In this document: piece by piece, positions 12,035-20,386 of the stretch | How the letters are laid out: every line of letters starts with the position of its first letter | Position numbering within the stretch: the first letter of the stretch is position 1 | Origin: Streptomyces sp. DSM 15324 | GTDB taxonomy: Bacteria > Actinomycetota > Actinomycetes > Streptomycetales > Streptomycetaceae | DNA: 64,000 bases | Reading direction: 5' to 3' | Assembly: GCF_001514285.1 (NCBI RefSeq) | Contig: NZ_KQ949028.1 | Coordinates: 312,743 to 376,742 of the forward strand | Program-made: the position numbers and the translations under genes | Notes under the pieces: generated by a model | What the model was told of the DNA's origin: nothing | The model's input: only the letters and a program-made list of their open reading frames with translations | The model's database searches: none

Positions 12035-12118
12035 CCCGTCACGGGGCACGCCGGGCAGGGGTGCCGCGAAAACCCGGAGACCGCGTCGCGGGGGTGCGGT
12101 TAGGATCCGAGGGCGCCA

Positions 12119-12190
12119 CCGGGCGTAGCGCAGAGGCAGTCGCGCCGGCTTGCCCAGCCGGATACGCCGGTTCGAATCCGGTCGTCCGGG
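12119..12190 (+). tRNA. tRNA-Gly(GCC), aberrant
   Basis: A cloverleaf can be folded: 7-bp acceptor (CCGGGCG with CGTCCGG), 3-bp D stem with a short AGAGGCAG loop, 5-bp anticodon stem with loop TTGCCCA (anticodon GCC at 12152-12154), and a normal T arm. Oddities are C at position 37, the shortened D loop, a 4-nt variable loop, and G as discriminator. No CCA is encoded. It lies 7 nt before a second odd tRNA and just upstream of the SDR-fold gene. Confidence 0.7.
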
Positions 12191-12197
12191 CGCGGAG

Positions 12198-12269
12198 GGT
12201 CCTGTAGAGCAGAGGCAGACTCGCCACCCTGTCAAGGTGGAGACGCCGGTTCGAATCCGGCCGGGACCG
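12198..12269 (+). tRNA. tRNA-Asp(GTC), aberrant
   Basis: The fold has a 7-bp acceptor (GGTCCTG with CGGGACC), a 3-bp D stem with the same short AGAGGCA loop as its neighbour, anticodon stem CCACC/GGTGG with loop CTGTCAA (anticodon GTC at 12231-12233), and a T arm identical in loop to the Gly gene. G is the discriminator, as in normal tRNA-Asp. It ends 29 nt before the ATG of the SDR-fold gene, so the RNAs and that operon may share a transcript. Confidence 0.75.
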
Positions 12270-12298
12270 CGGTAGGGCGAGCACGGGGGCGGGGACGG

Positions 12299-13660
12299 AT
12301 GGGCGAGCAGAGCGGACGGGCGGCGGTCACCGCGCCGGTCACCGAGACGGAACTGGCCGCCTTCCACGCGCTGGTGGGCAGGCTGCGCGCGCTGCCGGTC
12401 GACGATCCCGTACGGCTGCGCGCCGAGCAGGTCGCCGCCTCCTTCACGCGCGACGGACGGCTGCGCCGCCGCAAGGCCCGCGGCGCCGAGCTGTCGGCCG
12501 CCGACGCCGCCGCGATGGCCGCCACCGCCACCGGAGCCCCGGACCGGCGCGAGGACGCACCCCTGACCGGCGCCGACACCGGCGCGGGAGGCGTGTTCCT
12601 GCGGCCCCGTACCTGCTACGTCTGCAAGTCGCCGTATCGACAGGTCGACACGTTCTACCACCGGCTCTGCCCCGGCTGCGCCGCCGACAACACCGCCCGC
12701 CGCGCCCTGCGCACCGATCTGCGCGGGCGGCGCGTCCTGCTGACCGGCGGCCGGGTGAAGATCGGTTTCCAGCTGGCGCTGATGATGCTGCGCGACGGCG
12801 CCGAGGTCCAGGTCACCTCCCGGTTCCCGCACGACACCGTGCGCCGCTTCCGGGCCGAGCCGGGCAGCGACCGGTGGCTGGAGCGGCTCACCGTGCTCGC
12901 CGTCGACCTGCGCGACCCGCGCCAGGTGCTGGGCCTGTGCGAGGACCTGCGCGCCGAGGGCCGGCCCCTCGACATCCTCGTCAACAACGCGGCCCAGACC
13001 GTGCGCCGCCCTCCGCAGGCATACGCCCTGCTCGCGGCCGGCGAGGTCGACGCGCTGCCCCGAGGGGCGCGCCAGGCCCCCGGGTTCGCGCCGATGCGCA
13101 TGCTCCCGGGCGGGGCCGCCCCGCTGCCCGCGGCCCTGCGCGAGGCCGACGAGGCCGGTCTGCTGCCCGACCCCTCCCCGGAGAACTCCTGGTCGGCGAC
13201 GCTCGGTGCGCTCGATGCGGCCGAGGTCCTGGAGACCCAGCTCGTCAACGCCGTGGCCCCCGCCCTGCTGTGCGACCGGCTGCTGCCGCTGCTGCTCGCC
13301 TCTCCGCACCCACGCCGGTACGTCGTCAACGTCACCGCCGTCGAGGGCCGGTTCACCGTGCGCAACAAGATGCCGGGGCATCCGCACACCAACATGGCCA
13401 AGGCCGCCCTGAACATGCTCACCCGCACCAGCGCCGCCGAACTCGCCCCCCGGGGCGTCCACATGTGCGCCGTCGACACCGGCTGGATCACCGACGAGAA
13501 CCCGGCGCCGAAGAAGGCCCGGATGGCGGGCGCCGGCTTTCGCACCCCGCTCGACATCGTCGACGGCGCCGCCCGGGTGTACGACCCGATCGTGCGCGGC
13601 GAGGCCGGGGACCCGGTGTCGGGCGTGTTCCTGAAGGACTACCGGGAGGCGGAGTGGTGA
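12299..13660 (+). CDS. SDR-fold protein with N-terminal zinc ribbon, catalytic residues lost
   Basis: This 453-residue protein has three parts: a helical N-terminus, a four-cysteine knuckle (C106, C109, C124, C127), and a Rossmann domain with the SDR nucleotide motif TGGRVKIG (149-156) and NNAAQ (229-233). At the active site, the YxxxK Tyr is Thr364 (TNMAK, Lys368 kept) and the usual Ser region reads NVTAVEG. It is therefore probably a nucleotide-binding or structural protein and not a normal oxidoreductase. It begins 29 nt after tRNA-Asp and overlaps the next gene by 4 nt (GTGA). Function is unknown. Confidence 0.8.
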   Translation: MGEQSGRAAVTAPVTETELAAFHALVGRLRALPVDDPVRLRAEQVAASFTRDGRLRRRKARGAELSAADAAAMAATATGAPDRREDAPLTGADTGAGGVFLRPRTCYVCKSPYRQVDTFYHRLCPGCAADNTARRALRTDLRGRRVLLTGGRVKIGFQLALMMLRDGAEVQVTSRFPHDTVRRFRAEPGSDRWLERLTVLAVDLRDPRQVLGLCEDLRAEGRPLDILVNNAAQTVRRPPQAYALLAAGEVDALPRGARQAPGFAPMRMLPGGAAPLPAALREADEAGLLPDPSPENSWSATLGALDAAEVLETQLVNAVAPALLCDRLLPLLLASPHPRRYVVNVTAVEGRFTVRNKMPGHPHTNMAKAALNMLTRTSAAELAPRGVHMCAVDTGWITDENPAPKKARMAGAGFRTPLDIVDGAARVYDPIVRGEAGDPVSGVFLKDYREAEW

Positions 13661-14853
13661 GCGAGGAGAACCGGCCGGCCGGCCTCGCCGGAGTGCCCCC
13701 GGTCGTGCCCCGGCCGCTCGCCGATCTCGCCCCGCTGCTCGACTGGCTGCGCGCCGGGCGGCCGGCGGGGGAGCGCCTCGACTTCACCGCGGGGACCGCG
13801 CTGCCGGACGGGCGTCTGGACCTGTGCAAGCAGGCGCTGGGCGCCGAGGGGGCGGCGCTGATCGCCGAGGCCCTGGCCGACGGCCCGTCGCCGGTACGGC
13901 ACCTGCTGCTGGGCACCGACGCCCTCGGCGACGACGGGGCCGCCGCCGTGGCCGGCACCGAGGCGCCGGTCGAGACGCTCTACCTCGGCTGCAACGGCAT
14001 CACCGCCGGCGGCGCCTGCCGGATCGCCGACCAGCTGCGCGCCTCTCTGCAGGTCGTCACCGGTGTCTGGCTCAAGCGCAACCCGCTCGGCGGCGGGGCG
14101 GGCCGGGCGGCCGCCGAACTCATCGAGTCCGCGCGGACCCTGCGCACCCTCGACCTCGTCCAGACGGGCCTCACCGCGTCCGGCGCGGCCCTGCTCGCCG
14201 ACGCGCTCCTGGCCGCCGCCGACGGCGGCCGGCGCATCGAGCGGCTGTTCGTCGGCGGCAACCCGCTGGGCGCGCAGGGCGCCGAGGCGCTCGCCGCGGT
14301 GATCGCCTCGGGGGCCGTCGACGAGCTGTACGTGTCCGCGGCCCGGCTGGGCGACCCCGGCGCCCTCCGGCTCGCCGGCGCGCTGGCGCGGGCGCCGTAC
14401 GGGCGGCTCACCCGGCTGTCCGTCGCCAGCAACGGCATCGGACCCGGGGCCGCCGCCGTGCTGGTGGAGGCGGCCACGGCCGCCGGGGTCACCCTGCTGG
14501 ACCTCGGCCGGGTGCGCGCCGCCGCCGTGCTCGGCGCGGCCGACAACCGGCTCGACCTCGAGGCGGCCGACCGCATCGGCCGGACCCTGGCCGCCGGTGA
14601 ACACCGCCTCGCCCACCTGTACCTGCGCCACACCGGCCTGCGCAGCCCGGAGGCCCACCGGCTGCTCGACCACGCGCCCCGCGCCGCCACGGCCACCCGT
14701 TTCGTCCTCGGCCAGTCCATCGCGACCAGCGTCAAACGCCGCCTCGCGGCACTCAGCGCCCACGTCCCGCCCCCGCCGGTGTCCCCGGACGTGACAGCCG
14801 TACGCAGCGTCCACCGCACGGCACCGCCCGACTCCGGGAGCCGGGAGACCTGA
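13657..14853 (+). CDS. Leucine-rich repeat protein (ribonuclease-inhibitor type)
   Basis: This 398-residue protein consists largely of LRR units of about 28 residues of the RNI class, with phrases such as LYLGCNGITAGGACRIAD, LDLVQTGLTASGAALLAD, LFVGGNPLGAQGAEALA and LSVASNGIGPGAAAVL. It has no signal peptide or membrane segment, so it should be a cytoplasmic binding scaffold. The GTG start overlaps the stop of the SDR-fold gene, so the two are translated together and may form a complex. The Pro-rich tail (residues about 365-398) is probably disordered. Ligand unknown. Confidence 0.85.
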   Translation: MSEENRPAGLAGVPPVVPRPLADLAPLLDWLRAGRPAGERLDFTAGTALPDGRLDLCKQALGAEGAALIAEALADGPSPVRHLLLGTDALGDDGAAAVAGTEAPVETLYLGCNGITAGGACRIADQLRASLQVVTGVWLKRNPLGGGAGRAAAELIESARTLRTLDLVQTGLTASGAALLADALLAAADGGRRIERLFVGGNPLGAQGAEALAAVIASGAVDELYVSAARLGDPGALRLAGALARAPYGRLTRLSVASNGIGPGAAAVLVEAATAAGVTLLDLGRVRAAAVLGAADNRLDLEAADRIGRTLAAGEHRLAHLYLRHTGLRSPEAHRLLDHAPRAATATRFVLGQSIATSVKRRLAALSAHVPPPPVSPDVTAVRSVHRTAPPDSGSRET

Positions 14854-15089
14854 TCGAGCTCGGGACGCTGCCGGCCGGCGGTGTCGTACGTCCGTCGACG
14901 GAGCCACCGCTTCACGGCGCCGGGACGCGTGTCGAAGGCGGCGGAAAGCGGCGGGAGTTGCCCAGCCGCGCACCACGGCATCGACCGTTGACCGGAACGC
15001 GGTCTCAGCGGCGGCGCCGTCGAGGCCGCCGGCGAGTTCGTGTACTGGGCGCGCCGGACGGCGGGGTCGTTCGGGTCCCGCACGTCGGC

Positions 15090-16889
15090 TCAGCTCCCCC
15101 TCGCCTTCCCCGTGAACACCTCCATCCAGAACCGCTGGTGCTTCTCCGACGCCCCCACCAGGTACGTCGCCCGCAGCTTCGGGGGCAGATGGCGCGCCAG
15201 GCGGGTCACCACCGCGCGATGCCTGCGCAGCTGGGACAGCTCGGCGTTGGCGAGGATCTGGTGGACGACGTCGGTGTCGTCCGCGCCCTCGTCCGAGTGC
15301 GCGGCGGCGCGGCGCAGTCGGGCCTCCCAGGCGTCCGCGTCCCGGGCGAGTTCCCCGAGGCCGGTGACCGGCCGGCCCCGCAGGCGGTCGATCAGCGCGG
15401 TCAGGGGCACGGGCGCGTACTCGCCGTCGCCGAGGTAGACCGTCGCCATCTCCAGCGGCAGCCCGCGCCGGTGCAGCTTGATCAGCCGCTCCAGGGTGCG
15501 CTTGGTGATCCAGGCCCGGCCCTCCTCGTCGATGTCGTGCTTCCACCACTCCAGCACCGTCGCTGCGTCCGCGCCGTACCGCTCCAGCAGCCACTCGTTG
15601 GCCGGGATGTCCGCCGGGGTCACCTCCAGCGAGGCCGTGAAGCGGGTCGCCTGGGCGATGTTGTTCCGGGACACCAGCAGCTTGCGGCCCAGGTGGTACG
15701 GCGGGTTCTGCACGGCTATCTGGGCGCGCAGGTTCTCGATCCGCCGCCCGGCCAGGGACCACTCCTGGGTGATCTCCATCAGCTTGGCGAACGCGGCCCG
15801 GTCCTTGGGCCGGTTGTACTCGTCCCACACGATCGCCTTGGGCTCGGGCCCCGTGAACCGTACGGCGAGCAGATTGTCCAGCGTGCCGTCCGGCGAGGGC
15901 ACCGGCGCGCACAGGTCCTCCACGTTCGTCACCGGCAGCGAGAAGTACAGCGGGTCTCGGCCCAGCCCCTCGCGGAGCGTCTCGCGCACCAGTTCCGTCT
16001 TGCCGCAGCCGGGCGGCCCCTGGAGCAGCACCGTCCAGCGGTTGCGCAGTGCCGCCCGGACCACCTGCCGTACCGGGTCGGCGATCGTGGCCGGGTTCGG
16101 CACGCCCAGGGCCGCGGCGATCCGGTCCAGGATCTCCGCCGTACGGTTCGTCCCGGGTCGGCCGTCGGGTCCGGGCTCGGCCAGCCGCAGCCGCTCCCCG
16201 TCGACCAGGGGCAGCCCCCAGCGCAGCGGGAAGCCCTCGCGCGCCTGGGCGAGGACGTGATCGAGGGTGCGGGGGGAGAACAGCTCGCGCAGACCGGGGG
16301 AGAGCGACGCCCACACGGCGAACACCGGACGCAGGTCCCACGGGCGGTACGCGGCCTGGAGGTGACGCCGCCACGACGTGTCGTTCGCCGTGATCCGCAT
16401 CGTCACCATGCGGTCCAGCAGCGCGAGGTCGCCGCGCCGGGCCGAGGTCTCGGTGAGCGATTCGTTGTCGGTGAGGAAGACCCCGACACAGCCCAGGGCC
16501 CGCAGGTCGTGCTCGCCGAGCGTCCAGTTGCAGGCGATCTGCATCAGCTGCGACTGGATGGTGTCGCCCGCCTGGAGCGAGTCGTCGATGAGCAGGACGA
16601 ACGGCCGCCCCGGCGTGAGCTGGCTCATCACCAGCTGACGCAGCACGAGTTCACCCGAGCGGGGATCGCGCACCGGCGCGTTGACGAGCAGGTCGTCGGG
16701 GGTGAGGTTCGCGGCCGGTACGTAGACCAGCGCGGTGTCCGGGCGGGTGCGCGCGAGGTACGAGAAGAACGTCGACGTCTTGCCGATGCCGTGTTCCCCG
16801 AAGACCTGCCCGGTCTGGCCGAGGTCGATCATCGCGTCGATGAACGCTTCCAGACGCGAGGCGGTCTGCTGCGGTGCCTGTGTGGTCAT
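15090..16889 (-). CDS. Tandem AAA+ ATPase (MoxR-like)
   Basis: This 599-residue cytoplasmic protein has two ATPase modules. Module 1 has Walker A GEHGIGKT (31-38) and Walker B VLLIDD (98-103). Module 2 has Walker A GPPGCGKT (291-298) and Walker B AIVWDE (352-357), followed by a sensor-like AVQNPP. This fits MoxR/RavA-type AAA+ proteins, which commonly work with VWA-domain partners as metal-dependent chaperones. Its partner is the VWA gene 21 nt upstream in the same operon. The operon converges on the tRNA-SDR-LRR operon. Confidence 0.87.
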   Translation of the reverse strand: MTTQAPQQTASRLEAFIDAMIDLGQTGQVFGEHGIGKTSTFFSYLARTRPDTALVYVPAANLTPDDLLVNAPVRDPRSGELVLRQLVMSQLTPGRPFVLLIDDSLQAGDTIQSQLMQIACNWTLGEHDLRALGCVGVFLTDNESLTETSARRGDLALLDRMVTMRITANDTSWRRHLQAAYRPWDLRPVFAVWASLSPGLRELFSPRTLDHVLAQAREGFPLRWGLPLVDGERLRLAEPGPDGRPGTNRTAEILDRIAAALGVPNPATIADPVRQVVRAALRNRWTVLLQGPPGCGKTELVRETLREGLGRDPLYFSLPVTNVEDLCAPVPSPDGTLDNLLAVRFTGPEPKAIVWDEYNRPKDRAAFAKLMEITQEWSLAGRRIENLRAQIAVQNPPYHLGRKLLVSRNNIAQATRFTASLEVTPADIPANEWLLERYGADAATVLEWWKHDIDEEGRAWITKRTLERLIKLHRRGLPLEMATVYLGDGEYAPVPLTALIDRLRGRPVTGLGELARDADAWEARLRRAAAHSDEGADDTDVVHQILANAELSQLRRHRAVVTRLARHLPPKLRATYLVGASEKHQRFWMEVFTGKARGS

Positions 16890-16910
16890 GTGCCGGTTCC
16901 CTGTGCTCGG

Positions 16911-18311
16911 TTACCGCGATCCGGTGGTCACGCGATGGCAGGCCATCACCGGGGTGTGCCGTTCGGGCCACTCGTCGCCGCCCTCGGTGATGAGCCATAT
17001 CCATTTCCCGGGGTCGGCCGGGGTGATCGGCGGGGCGTGGCCGTCGGTCAGGACCACGATCGCGTCCGGATTCCCGTCGAACCGGCGGCCGTCGGCCTCG
17101 GCACGGCCTTCCACGTAGTCGGCGACCACCTGGAAGCTCGTGCCTCCGCCGCCGTACACCCGCCCGCCGGGCCGGAACGGCATCACCACGCCGTCGAAGG
17201 ACAGCCAGTGCGCCTCGACGCCGTCGATCCGCCCGACCAGGTCGGTGAGCCACCGCACCACGTGGTCCGGCATCGACCCCGAGGTGTCGTACGCGATCAC
17301 CAGGACCTTCTCGCGGACCGGGCCGCGCCGCGCCAGCATGGGGTCCTGGCCGAGCGCCGCGAGCAGCGCGCCCCGCTTCCTGGGGTACACCAGCCGCTCG
17401 CCCTCGCGGAGTTTCGAGGCGAGCACGTCGACGAGCCAGCGCTGCCACCAGTGGACGGTCCCCGTGCGCGTGGTCTCCCCGCGCAGCGCGCCGGCGCCCA
17501 GGGCGCCCCACAGCCGGGCCGCCCGCGCCGAGTCGCCCTCGGTCCGGCCCATCAGCTCCAGCAGCTCCGCCTCCGCGCCCGCGTGCCCGCGGCGGGCCGC
17601 CAGCAGGGAGTTGAGCAGCGCCGAGGACGTCACCGTGTCGACGGTCTCCTGGTCTGCGGGGACCCCGCCCGCCAGGTGCACACAGAGCCGGCGCTCCACG
17701 ACCGGCGGGCGGTGCATCCGCTTCAGCTCGCCGTACACCCGCATGTCCGTCTCGGTGAACGTCCCGTAATCCACCGGCTCCCGCCCGTGGGCCGTCAGGT
17801 CCTCGACGTAGGCCTCATGGATCCGCCGCGGGTCGATGCCCGTGGGACGGCCGTCCAGGAGGGGCAGGTCCTCGCGCTCCAGCCGGACCAGGGCGACGTG
17901 GTTGACGGCCACTTCCGCGGCCAGCTCGAACACAGGGTCCTCGCGCAGCCCGGGTTCGGCCAGCAGATGCCGGTGCACCAGATGCCTCGCCTCGTGGAAC
18001 AGGACGAACTTGACGCCGTCCAGGCCCAGTCGGACGAAGAAGTCCGGGTTGTACAGCAGCAGACAGGTGCCGTCGCCTGAGGCCACCACGGCCGCCGTGT
18101 CCACCGCCGTCGTCGGGATCTGGTGGTGGCACTTGGTGTACAGCCAGGACGCGACCGCCGACTCCGTCAGCCCGAAGTCCAGCAGCGCCGCCTCCTTCAG
18201 CCGCCGCGCCTGCGCGACGACCTCGGGATCGGCGGGCCGGTAGGCCTCCAGCGCCCGGCGGTCGGCCAGATCCACCACCGGCGCACGCCGCTCCCGCTCC
18301 CCGTAGCCCAT
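16911..18311 (-). CDS. VWA-domain protein with N-terminal HExxH (DUF2201-like) domain
   Basis: This 466-residue protein has an N-terminal metallopeptidase-like domain with FHEARH (HExxH, residues 106-110), followed by a linker and a C-terminal von Willebrand A domain. The VWA MIDAS residues are seen in YDTSGSM (D342), GGGGTSF and VLTDGH. No signal peptide is visible. ATG 18311 is preferred to an ATG 13 codons earlier because a G-rich ribosome site precedes only the former. It is paired with the AAA+ gene as in MoxR-VWA systems. Whether the HExxH is catalytic is unknown. Confidence 0.85.
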   Translation of the reverse strand: MGYGERERRAPVVDLADRRALEAYRPADPEVVAQARRLKEAALLDFGLTESAVASWLYTKCHHQIPTTAVDTAAVVASGDGTCLLLYNPDFFVRLGLDGVKFVLFHEARHLVHRHLLAEPGLREDPVFELAAEVAVNHVALVRLEREDLPLLDGRPTGIDPRRIHEAYVEDLTAHGREPVDYGTFTETDMRVYGELKRMHRPPVVERRLCVHLAGGVPADQETVDTVTSSALLNSLLAARRGHAGAEAELLELMGRTEGDSARAARLWGALGAGALRGETTRTGTVHWWQRWLVDVLASKLREGERLVYPRKRGALLAALGQDPMLARRGPVREKVLVIAYDTSGSMPDHVVRWLTDLVGRIDGVEAHWLSFDGVVMPFRPGGRVYGGGGTSFQVVADYVEGRAEADGRRFDGNPDAIVVLTDGHAPPITPADPGKWIWLITEGGDEWPERHTPVMACHRVTTGSR

Positions 18312-18404
18312 GCCGCAGCCCCCCGTACGACGCTTCCCCCAGTACCTCATTGGTAGCAGCCCGCACCGACATCGGGCCAAGGCATTAAGCTCCCCCGCAA
18401 GGGC

Positions 18405-18476
18405 GGGGCCGTAGCGCAGCGGCAGCCGCACCGGTCTCCAGAACCGGAACACGCTGGTTCGAATCCAGCCGCCCCG
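18405..18476 (+). tRNA. tRNA-Trp(CCA)-like gene, aberrant
   Basis: The anticodon arm CCGGT-CTCCAGA-ACCGG (anticodon CCA at 18438-18440), the T arm GCTGG-TTCGAAT-CCAGC and a short-looped D arm (AGCGGCA) like the two tRNAs at 12.1 kb are clear. The acceptor stem pairs only if one C is bulged on the 5' strand (GGGGC-C-G against CGCCCC). It stands alone, divergent from the VWA-AAA operon. It could be a functional variant, a regulatory tRNA-like RNA or a decayed gene. Confidence 0.6.
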
Positions 18477-18496
18477 CCCCCTCCCCTTCCCCGTGC

Positions 18497-19333
18497 TCAG
18501 GCGAGGGCGCCCGCCGTCATCAGCAGTTCCGGAGCGCTCCCGTGGAAGGTCCCGGCGAGCTGGGCCAGCACGGCCCAGGCGTCCTCGCGGTCGCCGAGGT
18601 GGTCGTGGACGAGCGGGCGCAGAGCGTCCTCGGCCTCGGGGAGGCGGGCCGGGAACATCAGCCGGCCCATGGCGAGGACCTCCAGGACCCGGACCGCCGG
18701 GCCGGGTCCGGTGGCGTACGCGGCGGGCCCGTCCAGCACCCCCGCCTCCCGCAGCCGGTGCGTGAACTTGGCGTGCGTGCCGAACCGGGCGCGCAGCGCG
18801 GGCGGGCAGTCCGGGCGGGTTGCGAGCGCCCAGCGGGTGTAGCCCGGCAGCGGCCGGGCGGCGTCCGCCTCGGCGACCGTCGTCCAGTCGTCCCGGGTCA
18901 GCACCATGGAACAGGCCGCGTGGCCCTGGGAGAGGGTGTCCACCGCGCGCAGGGCGCCCACGAGGCCGTGGCGGACATAGCTGTCGGGGATCCCGGGTTC
19001 CGGCTCGCGCGCCAGCTCGCGATCCACCGGTACGGGCGCCGTGCGGCCGGGGCCGAAGGGCACCCCGCGGACGACGGCCCGCCGCAGGCCCGCGTTCCTG
19101 CCGAGGTGGGGCCAGACCAGGGCGTTCAGCCGCGGGTCGTCCTCCTCCAGCGTCCACAGCGCGACGGACGACGGCACGGGGGACCAGTTCCAGGCCCGTC
19201 TGATCCGCCGCCTGGCCAGCCGGGAGGGTTCGTCCGATCCGAGCCCGATGCGCGCCCGGACGCGGGCCGCGGTGTCGTCGTCGGTCAGGTCCAGCAGGAG
19301 GCCGACCGCCAGTCGCGTGGTGTCGTCGAGCAT
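18497..19333 (-). CDS. Conserved hypothetical protein of the tRNA/AAA/VWA cluster
   Basis: This 278-residue protein has no recognisable catalytic motif, signal peptide or membrane helix. It is rich in Leu, Arg and Asp and looks largely helical. ATG 19333 (MLDDTTRLAVGLLLDL) is a better start than the in-frame ATG 12 codons upstream, since it removes a non-conserved-looking extension. It lies on the same strand as the VWA and AAA genes, separated from them by the tRNA-Trp-like gene. A role with that cluster is suggested only by position. Confidence 0.65.
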   Translation of the reverse strand: MLDDTTRLAVGLLLDLTDDDTAARVRARIGLGSDEPSRLARRRIRRAWNWSPVPSSVALWTLEEDDPRLNALVWPHLGRNAGLRRAVVRGVPFGPGRTAPVPVDRELAREPEPGIPDSYVRHGLVGALRAVDTLSQGHAACSMVLTRDDWTTVAEADAARPLPGYTRWALATRPDCPPALRARFGTHAKFTHRLREAGVLDGPAAYATGPGPAVRVLEVLAMGRLMFPARLPEAEDALRPLVHDHLGDREDAWAVLAQLAGTFHGSAPELLMTAGALA

Positions 19334-19411: not shown

Positions 19412-20386
19412 TCAGGCCCCGGCGCGCGCCGCCATGCGCGCCTTGCGCGCCGCGAGCTTCTCGTCGAACTTCGACGCCTCCGAGTCCAGGCCGCCGAGGA
19501 ACAGACCCAGCTCCTCCTGGGCCTGGCGGCCGTCGGCGCCGAGGCCGTCGATCTCCATGACCTTCAGGTGGCGCAGCACGGGCTGGAGGACGTCGTCGTG
19601 GTGGATGCGCAGGTTGTAGACCTCGCCGATGGCCATCTGCGCGGCGAACCGCTCGAAGCCGGGCATGCCGTGGCCGGGCATCCGGAAGTTCACGATGACG
19701 TCCCGCACGGCCTGCATGGTGAGGTCGGGGGCGAGCTCGAACGCGGCCTTCAGCAGGTTGCGGTAGAAGACCATGTGCAGGTTCTCGTCGGTCGCGATCC
19801 GGGCCAGCATGCGGTCGCAGACCGGGTCGCCGGACTGGTGGCCGGTGTTGCGGTGCGAGATGCGGGTCGCGAGCTCCTGGAAGGCGACGTAGGCGACCGA
19901 GTGCAGCATCGAGTGGCGGTTGTCCGACTCGAAGCCCTCGCTCATGTGCTCCATCCGGAACCGCTCCAGCTTGTCCGGGTCGACCGCGCGCGAGGCGAGC
20001 AGGTAGTCGCGCATCACGATGCCGTGCCGGCCCTCCTCGGCGGTCCAGCGGTGCACCCAGGTGCCCCAGGCGCCGTCGCGGCCGAACAGGGAGGCGATCT
20101 CGTGGTGGTAGCTGGGCAGGTTGTCCTCGGTGAGGAGGTTCACCACGAGCGCGATCCGGCCGATCTCGGTGACCTTGGACTGCTCCTTGTCCCAGGCCTC
20201 GCCGTCCTCGAAGAAGCCGGGGAAGTTGCGGCCGTCGCTCCAGGGCACGTACTCGTGCGGCATCCAGTCCTTGGCGACCTTCAGATGCCGGTTGAGTTCG
20301 GTCTCGACCACTTCCTCGAGCGCGTACAGCAGCTTGGCGTCGGTCCAGACGGCGGGGCTGCCGAGGTGAGGGGAGGTGATCGTCAC
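19412..20386 (-). CDS. Acyl-ACP desaturase (ferritin-like diiron)
   Basis: This is a 324-residue soluble fatty acyl-ACP desaturase that inserts a double bond using a diiron centre and reduced ferredoxin. The iron-ligand motifs are present: TEDNLPSYH, EEGRHG, and the second-half DENLH. The GTG start has a GGAG site at suitable spacing. Three tandem palindromic repeats lie about 60-110 bp upstream and are likely the operator for a TetR-type lipid regulator. No regulator gene is adjacent. Confidence 0.9.
   Translation of the reverse strand: MTITSPHLGSPAVWTDAKLLYALEEVVETELNRHLKVAKDWMPHEYVPWSDGRNFPGFFEDGEAWDKEQSKVTEIGRIALVVNLLTEDNLPSYHHEIASLFGRDGAWGTWVHRWTAEEGRHGIVMRDYLLASRAVDPDKLERFRMEHMSEGFESDNRHSMLHSVAYVAFQELATRISHRNTGHQSGDPVCDRMLARIATDENLHMVFYRNLLKAAFELAPDLTMQAVRDVIVNFRMPGHGMPGFERFAAQMAIGEVYNLRIHHDDVLQPVLRHLKVMEIDGLGADGRQAQEELGLFLGGLDSEASKFDEKLAARKARMAARAGA

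Follow-up and report, generated by a model that had tools for sequence, protein, structure and literature searches.

We found that arrays of tRNA-like RNAs are, with near certainty, linked to a cassette of protein genes in Streptomyces sp. DSM 15324 and its relatives. The window that we analyzed is a 64,000-nucleotide stretch of this genome (contig NZ_KQ949028.1, positions 312,743 to 376,742 of the forward strand), and all coordinates below are those of the window. Its cassette, which we call type A, encodes a short-chain dehydrogenase/reductase (SDR)-fold protein, a ribonuclease-inhibitor-type leucine-rich repeat (LRR) protein, a tandem AAA+ ATPase, a von Willebrand factor A (VWA) protein and an orphan all-helical protein, together with three odd tRNAs. 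Scanning 84,980 species with an alignment of the VWA protein yielded 113 relatives, and we used the best 80 of these 113 loci for our counts. All 47 loci that carry the orphan gene or a linked SDR gene (at least 65% identity) also have odd tRNAs, whereas none of the 33 others has any (47/47 versus 0/33; Fisher test, 3e-23). The original prediction, which regarded the tRNAs as belonging to this machinery and proposed a search for their co-occurrence, is strongly supported by this conservation and by a second operon type (type B, below). It had also held that the link would be chance if the protein genes were common without such tRNAs; the VWA-AAA pair does occur alone (33/80 loci), and the loci with a linked SDR or orphan gene always carry the tRNAs. 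As it suggested, the tRNAs may be substrates, sensors or decoys of the machinery, perhaps in RNA damage control.

In the window, the array consists of odd tRNA 1 with a GCC (Gly) anticodon (12119..12190, plus strand) and odd tRNA 2 with a GTC (Asp) anticodon (12198..12269, plus strand), with a gap of 6 bases between them. A putative promoter element, the -10-like box TAGGAT (12101..12106, plus strand), lies 12 bases before the array. Both tRNAs are directly 5′ of the SDR gene (12299..13660, plus strand; PF00106 and PF13561), whose 3′ end overlaps the start of the LRR gene (13654..14853, plus strand; PF13516; GTG start at 13654 or 13657). The genes for the AAA+ ATPase (15090..16889, minus strand; PF07728) and the VWA protein (16911..18311, minus strand; PF13203) run in the opposite direction, followed by odd tRNA 3 with a CCA (Trp) anticodon (18405..18477, plus strand) and the orphan gene, labeled HYP (18497..19333, minus strand; alternative start 19369). 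The Trp tRNA is opposite in strand to both of its neighbors and has its own presumed promoter element upstream, the -10-like box TAAGCT (18386..18391, plus strand). ARAGORN calls a tRNA-Gly(GCC) at 12119-12191, a tRNA-Asp(GTC) at 12198-12270 and a tRNA-Trp(CCA) at 18403-18480, all on the plus strand, and their Rfam scores are 49.7, 58.8 and 44.8 bits (gathering score 29). Our covariance model of the odd tRNAs, R1, scores them at 80.6, 83.1 and 76.7 bits. The gene layout, first read from the letters alone, is borne out by ARAGORN, Rfam and Pfam.

The D arm of the three tRNAs, CAG[A/C]GGCAG, is almost the same in all, and the 3′ strand of its stem has one additional base; a shared D-arm oddity had been correctly noticed in the original prediction, though it amounts to more than the short D loop described there. 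Across 43 sequences, both the D arm and the T arm vary very little, and an elongator-type elbow is present (cloverleaf, D and T arms, G18 G19 and TTCGAAT). For the acceptor stem, 7 bp fits some odd copies and a 9-bp or shifted register is needed in others; by eye, the 9-bp stem is found in first-array tRNAs of several genera, and the shifted register fits VWA-side tRNAs. With two further pairs added, the stem shows covariation (114 double-changed cells versus 42 in shuffles), sliding the acceptor-stem partner lowers every covariation measure, and the outer pairs -1:73 and -2:74 are paired in 14/43 and 22/43 sequences. An encoded CCA is missing in 110/115 odd tRNAs, as in many canonical tRNAs of the same genome.

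We rejected the possibility that these RNAs are normal housekeeping copies. The genome has 72 Rfam tRNA matches, and separate canonical Gly-GCC, Asp-GTC and Trp-CCA tRNAs occur at 3, 2 and 1 places, with bodies that differ from those of the odd tRNAs. Model R1 separates the two groups: the 43 odd tRNAs from which it was built score 67.0-89.7 bits and those canonical tRNAs of the same genome that were scored with it at most 54.2 bits, in a test that covered 63 sources, the part of the loci then in hand. The anticodon stem-loop of the odd Asp(GTC) tRNA is identical to that of the genome’s canonical Asp tRNA. When up to one mismatch is allowed, the odd D-arm pattern turns up many times by chance in a genome this rich in GC and proves nothing by itself; consequently, our claim rests on the whole RNA and its conservation.

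The VWA protein was found in 23 of 150 genomes, including that of the window, with one spurious match (G122, 29% identity over 175 residues). We fetched 20 of the 21 other real positives with their flanks: 12 carry the cassette and odd tRNAs, and 8 carry VWA and AAA genes alone, with no odd tRNA in the stretch. A whole-genome search with R1 gave a match of at least 67 bits in 12/12 cassette genomes; across nine genomes with VWA and AAA alone, at an E-value of 1e-11, seven had none and two had one match each (63.7 and 57.9 bits). Over 396 genomes of the phylum, R1 had matches at the same E-value in 84, the best outside Streptomyces scoring 65.1 bits, and those matches outside Streptomyces whose loci were fetched and read are canonical tRNAs, for example Gly-CCC.

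The 80 loci include two from one strain, S. smaragdinus RB5, one with the cassette (L237) and one without (L264). Among the 47 loci with odd tRNAs, the SDR gene is absent in four (L207, L208, L218 and L251), where the contig ends, and the orphan gene in three (L235, at a contig end, L239 and L245); the LRR gene is present in 30 of the 43 SDR loci. There are one to six odd tRNAs per locus, most often three (33/43 SDR loci). R1 gave 134 matches of at least 52.6 bits, the lowest two of which (54.0 and 52.6 bits) are within the canonical tRNA range, and five further matches of at most 35.3 bits were not counted as odd. The hosts of the cassette include Streptomyces, Actinacidiphila, Kitasatospora, Streptacidiphilus and Actinospica, as well as the Pseudonocardiaceae Lentzea, Amycolatopsis, Allokutzneria, Kibdelosporangium and Actinosynnema, and gene order is the same in Streptomycetaceae and Pseudonocardiaceae. 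On the VWA tree, the odd-tRNA label needs 3 changes, and a 51-row clade (support 97) holds all odd-tRNA rows plus three without (L238, L240 and L243). The cassette’s history would be about one origin with later losses, not 47 independent events. Of 37 cassette loci at least 19 kb long, 14 have neither the WhiB nor the desaturase nor the DDAH-like neighbor of the window, and therefore static synteny does not explain why the unit stays together.

The RNAs also have the appearance of separate expression units. In 41/44 loci, versus 3.5 after shuffling, the 30 bases that precede the first array tRNA contain a TAnnnT box, mostly TAGGAT, which is located 16-19 bases before the tRNA in 40 of these 41. 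Before the VWA-side tRNA, such a box is found in 38/38 loci, versus 2.7 after shuffling, mostly 17-20 bases ahead and most commonly TACGCT or TACGAT. Such a pattern would be expected if every RNA unit had a promoter to itself, and each unit would then be transcribed on its own.

Pfam assigns the SDR protein to adh_short, the LRR protein to LRR_6, the AAA protein to AAA_5 and the VWA protein to DUF2201_N, a putative metallopeptidase domain at its N-terminus; the orphan protein has no Pfam match. The VWA protein carries HEARH at residue 106 and DTSGS at residue 342, and H106, E107 and H110 are invariant in 17/17 sequences. Its sequence had no match in the PDB at an E-value of 1, and its predicted structure was of low confidence (pLDDT 58.3) and was not used. 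The AAA protein has Walker A motifs at residues 31 and 291, and an AAA gene adjoins the VWA gene, being present in 78/80 VWA loci. A profile of the LRR protein (A3) matched ribonuclease inhibitor in the PDB (E-value 2.3e-32). The AlphaFold2 model of the orphan protein has a pLDDT of 90.6 and no PDB fold match at an E-value of 0.001.

The SDR protein has four invariant cysteines in a zinc-ribbon-like arrangement, and its catalytic YxxxK is changed to TxxxK. The catalytic degeneracy of this protein was thus rightly predicted, although it is unspecific: TxxxK also occurs in family members that have no odd tRNA nearby by pattern, and we rejected it as a hallmark of the system. Of the 15 family loci examined, one of which (L146) belongs to the system, the 14 that gave a motif all have TxxxK in place of YxxxK; for an SDR paralogue in the window’s own genome (L150), the search pattern used gave no motif. 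Separately, in Actinomadura and Nonomuraea (L254-L257, L259, L272, L273, L284 and L285), the gene between AAA and VWA encodes a member of this SDR family (45-56% identity), without odd tRNAs, the AAA side falling off the contig in L273.

A second operon type repeats the combination of RNA, LRR, AAA and VWA. Among the matches of model R1 are lower-scoring odd tRNAs of other Streptomyces, one of which adjoins an LRR gene whose product is 41% identical to the window’s LRR protein. This type B LRR is present in 14/150 Streptomyces genomes, and in 14/14 of them a tRNA-like gene is located just upstream on the same strand. The RNA’s body is near-invariant (mean column identity 95%), and its anticodon arm is irregular by eye. 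In 6/6 loci read, the order is tRNA-like RNA, LRR, ankyrin protein, AAA and VWA, and the VWA protein combines DUF2201_N with DUF2201. Comparing types B and A by blastp, the AAA and VWA proteins have no significant alignment and the LRR proteins are 42% identical over 345 residues; the type B AAA matches the bpMoxR model weakly, below the cut-off. Judged by these sequences, the same combination was put together with different AAA and VWA proteins.

Reduced forms identify the core of type A. Eight other Streptomyces have a type A LRR, and in these the VWA gene is intact in three, a remnant in two and absent in three. Odd tRNAs of at least 78 bits are found in the seven of them searched with R1, and are visible in the eighth (G572, L368), which retains them beside AAA and VWA remnants and an LRR match interrupted by one stop. 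Since VWA-AAA pairs occur without the tRNAs, and tRNAs, SDR and LRR occur without an intact VWA, the SDR gene is the constant partner of the type A tRNAs. The constant core is the tRNAs plus the SDR, and some lineages can do without VWA-AAA or the LRR. In a further genome (G009, L146), the SDR alone of the cassette proteins was found, as an open frame beside a degenerate array (37.8 and 27.3 bits). This case hinted that loss of VWA-AAA makes the tRNAs decay, an idea that is not general, as three genomes without VWA (G551, G649 and G575) keep high-scoring odd tRNAs and G572 has kept its own next to VWA remnants.

The anticodon of these RNAs varies. The window and the 80 loci together yielded 131 odd tRNAs that we could parse, 115 of them distinct and 113 of these with a regular loop and stem; a few anticodons hinge on loop parsing, and one tRNA (L242) differs between our parser and ARAGORN. 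At the first array position (n = 37), the anticodons are GCT in 10, GCC in 10, GGC in 6, GCA in 4 and others in 7; at the last (n = 44), they are GTC in 19, CTC in 8, GGC in 5, CGC in 4 and others in 8. The VWA-side position (n = 38) has CCA in 32, GCA in 4, CCC in 1 and GCG in 1. Mapped onto the VWA tree, the anticodon has changed at least 22 times at the last array position (44 loci), at least 17 times at the first (37 loci) and 3 times on the VWA side (38 loci). T33 is kept in 105/113 odd tRNAs. Loop bases 32, 37 and 38 match those of the canonical tRNA with the same anticodon in 220/333 cases, compared with a shuffled mean of 190 (sd 5.4), in a test that ignores relatedness, which inflates agreement.

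We propose, with a probability of about 0.38, that the odd tRNAs are baits acting in trans, watched by the SDR and LRR proteins, with the AAA-VWA metallopeptidase as the effector. One to six tRNA-like RNAs per locus would be made from their own promoters and adopt the tRNA elbow formed by the D and T arms, yet they would not be normal adaptors. The SDR-fold protein, the LRR protein or both would hold the constant elbow, and the exchangeable anticodon loop would be displayed to the cell. Damage to a bait, or its capture by a tRNA-attacking nuclease, a phage product or a stress enzyme, would be the trigger that releases or activates the AAA-VWA machine. We favor this reading because of the concordance of tRNAs and cassette, the unit’s persistence among other neighbors, the near-invariant elbow with swapped anticodons, the covarying acceptor stem, the conserved -10-like boxes, the tracking of the anticodon by its loop bases, the lack of Ser and Ala charging signals in most such copies and the recurrence in type B. 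Ribonuclease-inhibitor-type LRRs and MoxR-type AAA plus VWA pairs fit conflict or chaperone systems. More tentatively, types A and B may follow the same RNA-plus-LRR principle and represent a class of surveillance system, in which tRNA decoys would be swappable sensors, the anticodon would evolve to fit the current tRNA-directed threat and the AAA-VWA metallopeptidase would act on detection.

Several observations weigh against the bait proposal. VWA-AAA pairs stand alone in 33 of the 80 loci, including the three within the cassette clade (L238, L240 and L243) that have retained VWA-AAA and lost the remainder; it seems that VWA-AAA without the RNAs is tolerated. Conversely, three Streptomyces have SDR, LRR and odd tRNAs but no VWA, and two have VWA remnants. 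C37, which is unusual in tRNAs, occurs in 22/113 loops and argues against close mimicry of host anticodon loops, and the inflated agreement of the loop-base test counts on the same side. Using Pfam and PADLOC, no nuclease, RNA-binding family or known defense gene could be recognized among the five window proteins. Related single odd tRNAs are also found elsewhere, including in Streptomyces without either LRR type (G545, G547 and G550), and consequently the RNA family is wider than this system.

It is possible, though unlikely, that the odd tRNAs instead carry amino acids, which they pass on to the SDR or AAA-VWA proteins or whose presence they signal to them, in an extraribosomal aminoacyl-tRNA-dependent pathway. 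The array positions mostly correspond to small (Gly, Ala, Ser and Cys) and acidic (Asp and Glu) residues, with Trp by the VWA gene, and anticodon preferences differ among the first, last and VWA-side positions, but anticodon neighborhood in sequence space explains these preferences equally well. G73 is expected for tRNA-Asp; it is present in 8/15 distinct GTC (Asp) copies versus 1/13 CTC (Glu) copies, counting all positions, a bias that favors charging a little. In contrast, SerRS requires a long variable arm and AlaRS requires G3:U70, and the copies mostly lack them: a long variable arm is found in 0/10 Ser-anticodon copies, all ten having a variable region of 4-5 bases, and G3:U70 in 1/16 Ala-anticodon copies. 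Cognate charging of the Ser and Ala copies would be unlikely and, because their identity elements are mostly missing, the anticodon is no reliable predictor of charging. Moreover, neither a peptide precursor nor a tRNA-dependent ligase family was recognized among the five window proteins.

The near-invariant D and T arms, the freely changing anticodon and the C37 loops would also suit RNAs that serve the AAA-VWA or SDR-LRR machine as structural or regulatory subunits, comparable to a Y RNA in a Ro60 particle, and in which the anticodon carries little weight; the near-invariant type B body with its irregular anticodon arm points the same way. However, such subunits would have little reason to keep T33 or to have loop bases that track the anticodon better than shuffles, and several different RNAs per locus, three in most SDR loci, exceed what a scaffold needs. 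We judge this explanation to be unlikely as well.

The position of the RNAs raises the question of whether they act in cis, as leaders through which the gene behind them is controlled, be it by RNase P processing or by mimicking an aminoacyl-tRNA synthetase target. In 43 loci, the median distance from the end of the array to the SDR alignment, which lies on the same strand, is 43 bases, and the type B RNAs are just upstream of the LRR gene, also on the same strand. A leader cannot readily account for the VWA-side tRNA, which is opposite in strand to both neighbors and yet conserved with its own -10-like box, nor for the upstream odd tRNA of one genome (G104), about 9 kb from its SDR gene, and we hold control in cis to be improbable. 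Equally doubtful, in our estimate, is a role as spare or damage-resistant tRNAs that sustain translation under attack: the elbow is intact, T33 is retained and the lack of an encoded CCA is shared with many canonical tRNAs of the same genome, but the Ser and Ala identity elements are missing, C37 is frequent and part of the copies have shifted or 9-bp acceptor stems. Finally, mobile elements often integrate at tRNA genes, but a chance neighborhood or integration hot spot is very improbable and was rejected, given the 47/47 versus 0/33 concordance, the gene order common to two families, the varied chromosomal settings and the repeated combination in type B.

Outside types A and B, we observed single chromosomal odd tRNAs in Streptomyces, which we call type C (L192-L196, L198, L338-L344 and L347-L352), in genomes that have a type A or B LRR as well as in genomes that lack both, and no protein partner could be tied to them. 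At three of these loci (L195, L342 and L348), the tRNA lies beside SDR and LLM-type genes that, by eye, seem to be the same ones each time, and its anticodon is AGC, GCT or, in the third, an unassigned loop. The 19-base odd D-arm stretch also occurs in tRNA-Thr genes of phage tRNA arrays on two viral contigs (L204 and L206), out of four viral contigs with a hit to the D-arm pattern, which would suit a phage origin of the odd tRNAs. When two odd tRNAs were compared by blastn with 50,697 phage records, however, neither had a match. The window’s own genome (G000) further contains a tRNA-Leu(CAA) at C1:1334214 (L050 and L200) and a tRNA-Leu(TAG) at C1:148477 (L049 and L199) without the long variable arm that tRNA-Leu normally has. 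A Leu(CAA) of the same form is found in another Streptomyces (L345), and the short-arm form may be genus-wide. The genome also has more irregular, low-scoring tRNA-like genes (Gln-TTG, Gly-TCC and Ser-TGA; sites C5:128378, L061; C7:433348, L062; and C10:83070, L059). Next to the cassette, an Rfam ASdes match (19968-20035, plus strand; 68.3 bits, gathering score 40) is antisense to the fatty-acid desaturase gene, and may reflect mere conservation of the desaturase coding sequence.

Pfam, NCBIfam and PADLOC name domains of the cassette and no system; tested against eight proteins (five from type A and three from type B), PADLOC returned just short, weak matches to AAA proteins. No description of the system was found in the literature searched, outside of which most subscription papers and bioRxiv preprints fall, so that absence is no proof. 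The early view that the system is undescribed is thus supported and, with this caution about the literature, we rate it as categorically new. If our proposal is true, arrayed tRNA-like RNAs tied by evolution to an SDR, LRR and AAA-VWA machine would constitute an RNA-protein system of a new kind and a possible sensor for tRNA attack, and in a major group of antibiotic producers tRNA look-alikes would serve a purpose other than translation. Streptomyces tRNA sets are treated in PMC4932002. Annotation counts of Streptomyces tRNAs may include non-adaptor genes.

We compared the cassette with known systems that share some of its components. Like MoxR AAA plus VWA pairs, of which RavA-ViaA is an example, it has an AAA ATPase gene adjoining that of a VWA protein; here, the VWA protein carries DUF2201_N with an HExxH motif. 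The Ro60-Y RNA particle joins a VWA-containing protein to small, partly tRNA-like RNAs, whereas Pfam finds no TROVE/Ro60 family among the five window proteins, and the RNAs are arrayed cloverleaves whose anticodons vary. Non-standard acceptor or D arms are known from allo-tRNAs and other non-canonical tRNAs, and the odd tRNAs resemble them in the D arm and, in part of the copies, in the acceptor stem; to our knowledge, allo-tRNAs are not tied to SDR, LRR, AAA or VWA operons, and the present RNAs differ in keeping a constant body while exchanging the anticodon. MoxR and VWA proteins also come together in the VMAP and beta-propeller MoxR-vWA ternary systems of PMC7159879, the consulted passages of which mention no tRNA or LRR component; here, the partners are tRNA-like RNAs, an SDR and a ribonuclease-inhibitor-type LRR. 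Pfam recognizes no VMAP, bpMoxR or beta-propeller family among the five window proteins and, compared with bpX systems, the window’s AAA is tandem and has no bpMoxR model match at an E-value of 0.001. The tRNA array units of phages and mycobacteria, described as a putative antidefense system at the start of the abstract of PMC12803027, likewise consist of clustered extra tRNA genes. The present arrays differ in that their one to six tRNAs all share the same odd body and are tied to a protein cassette.

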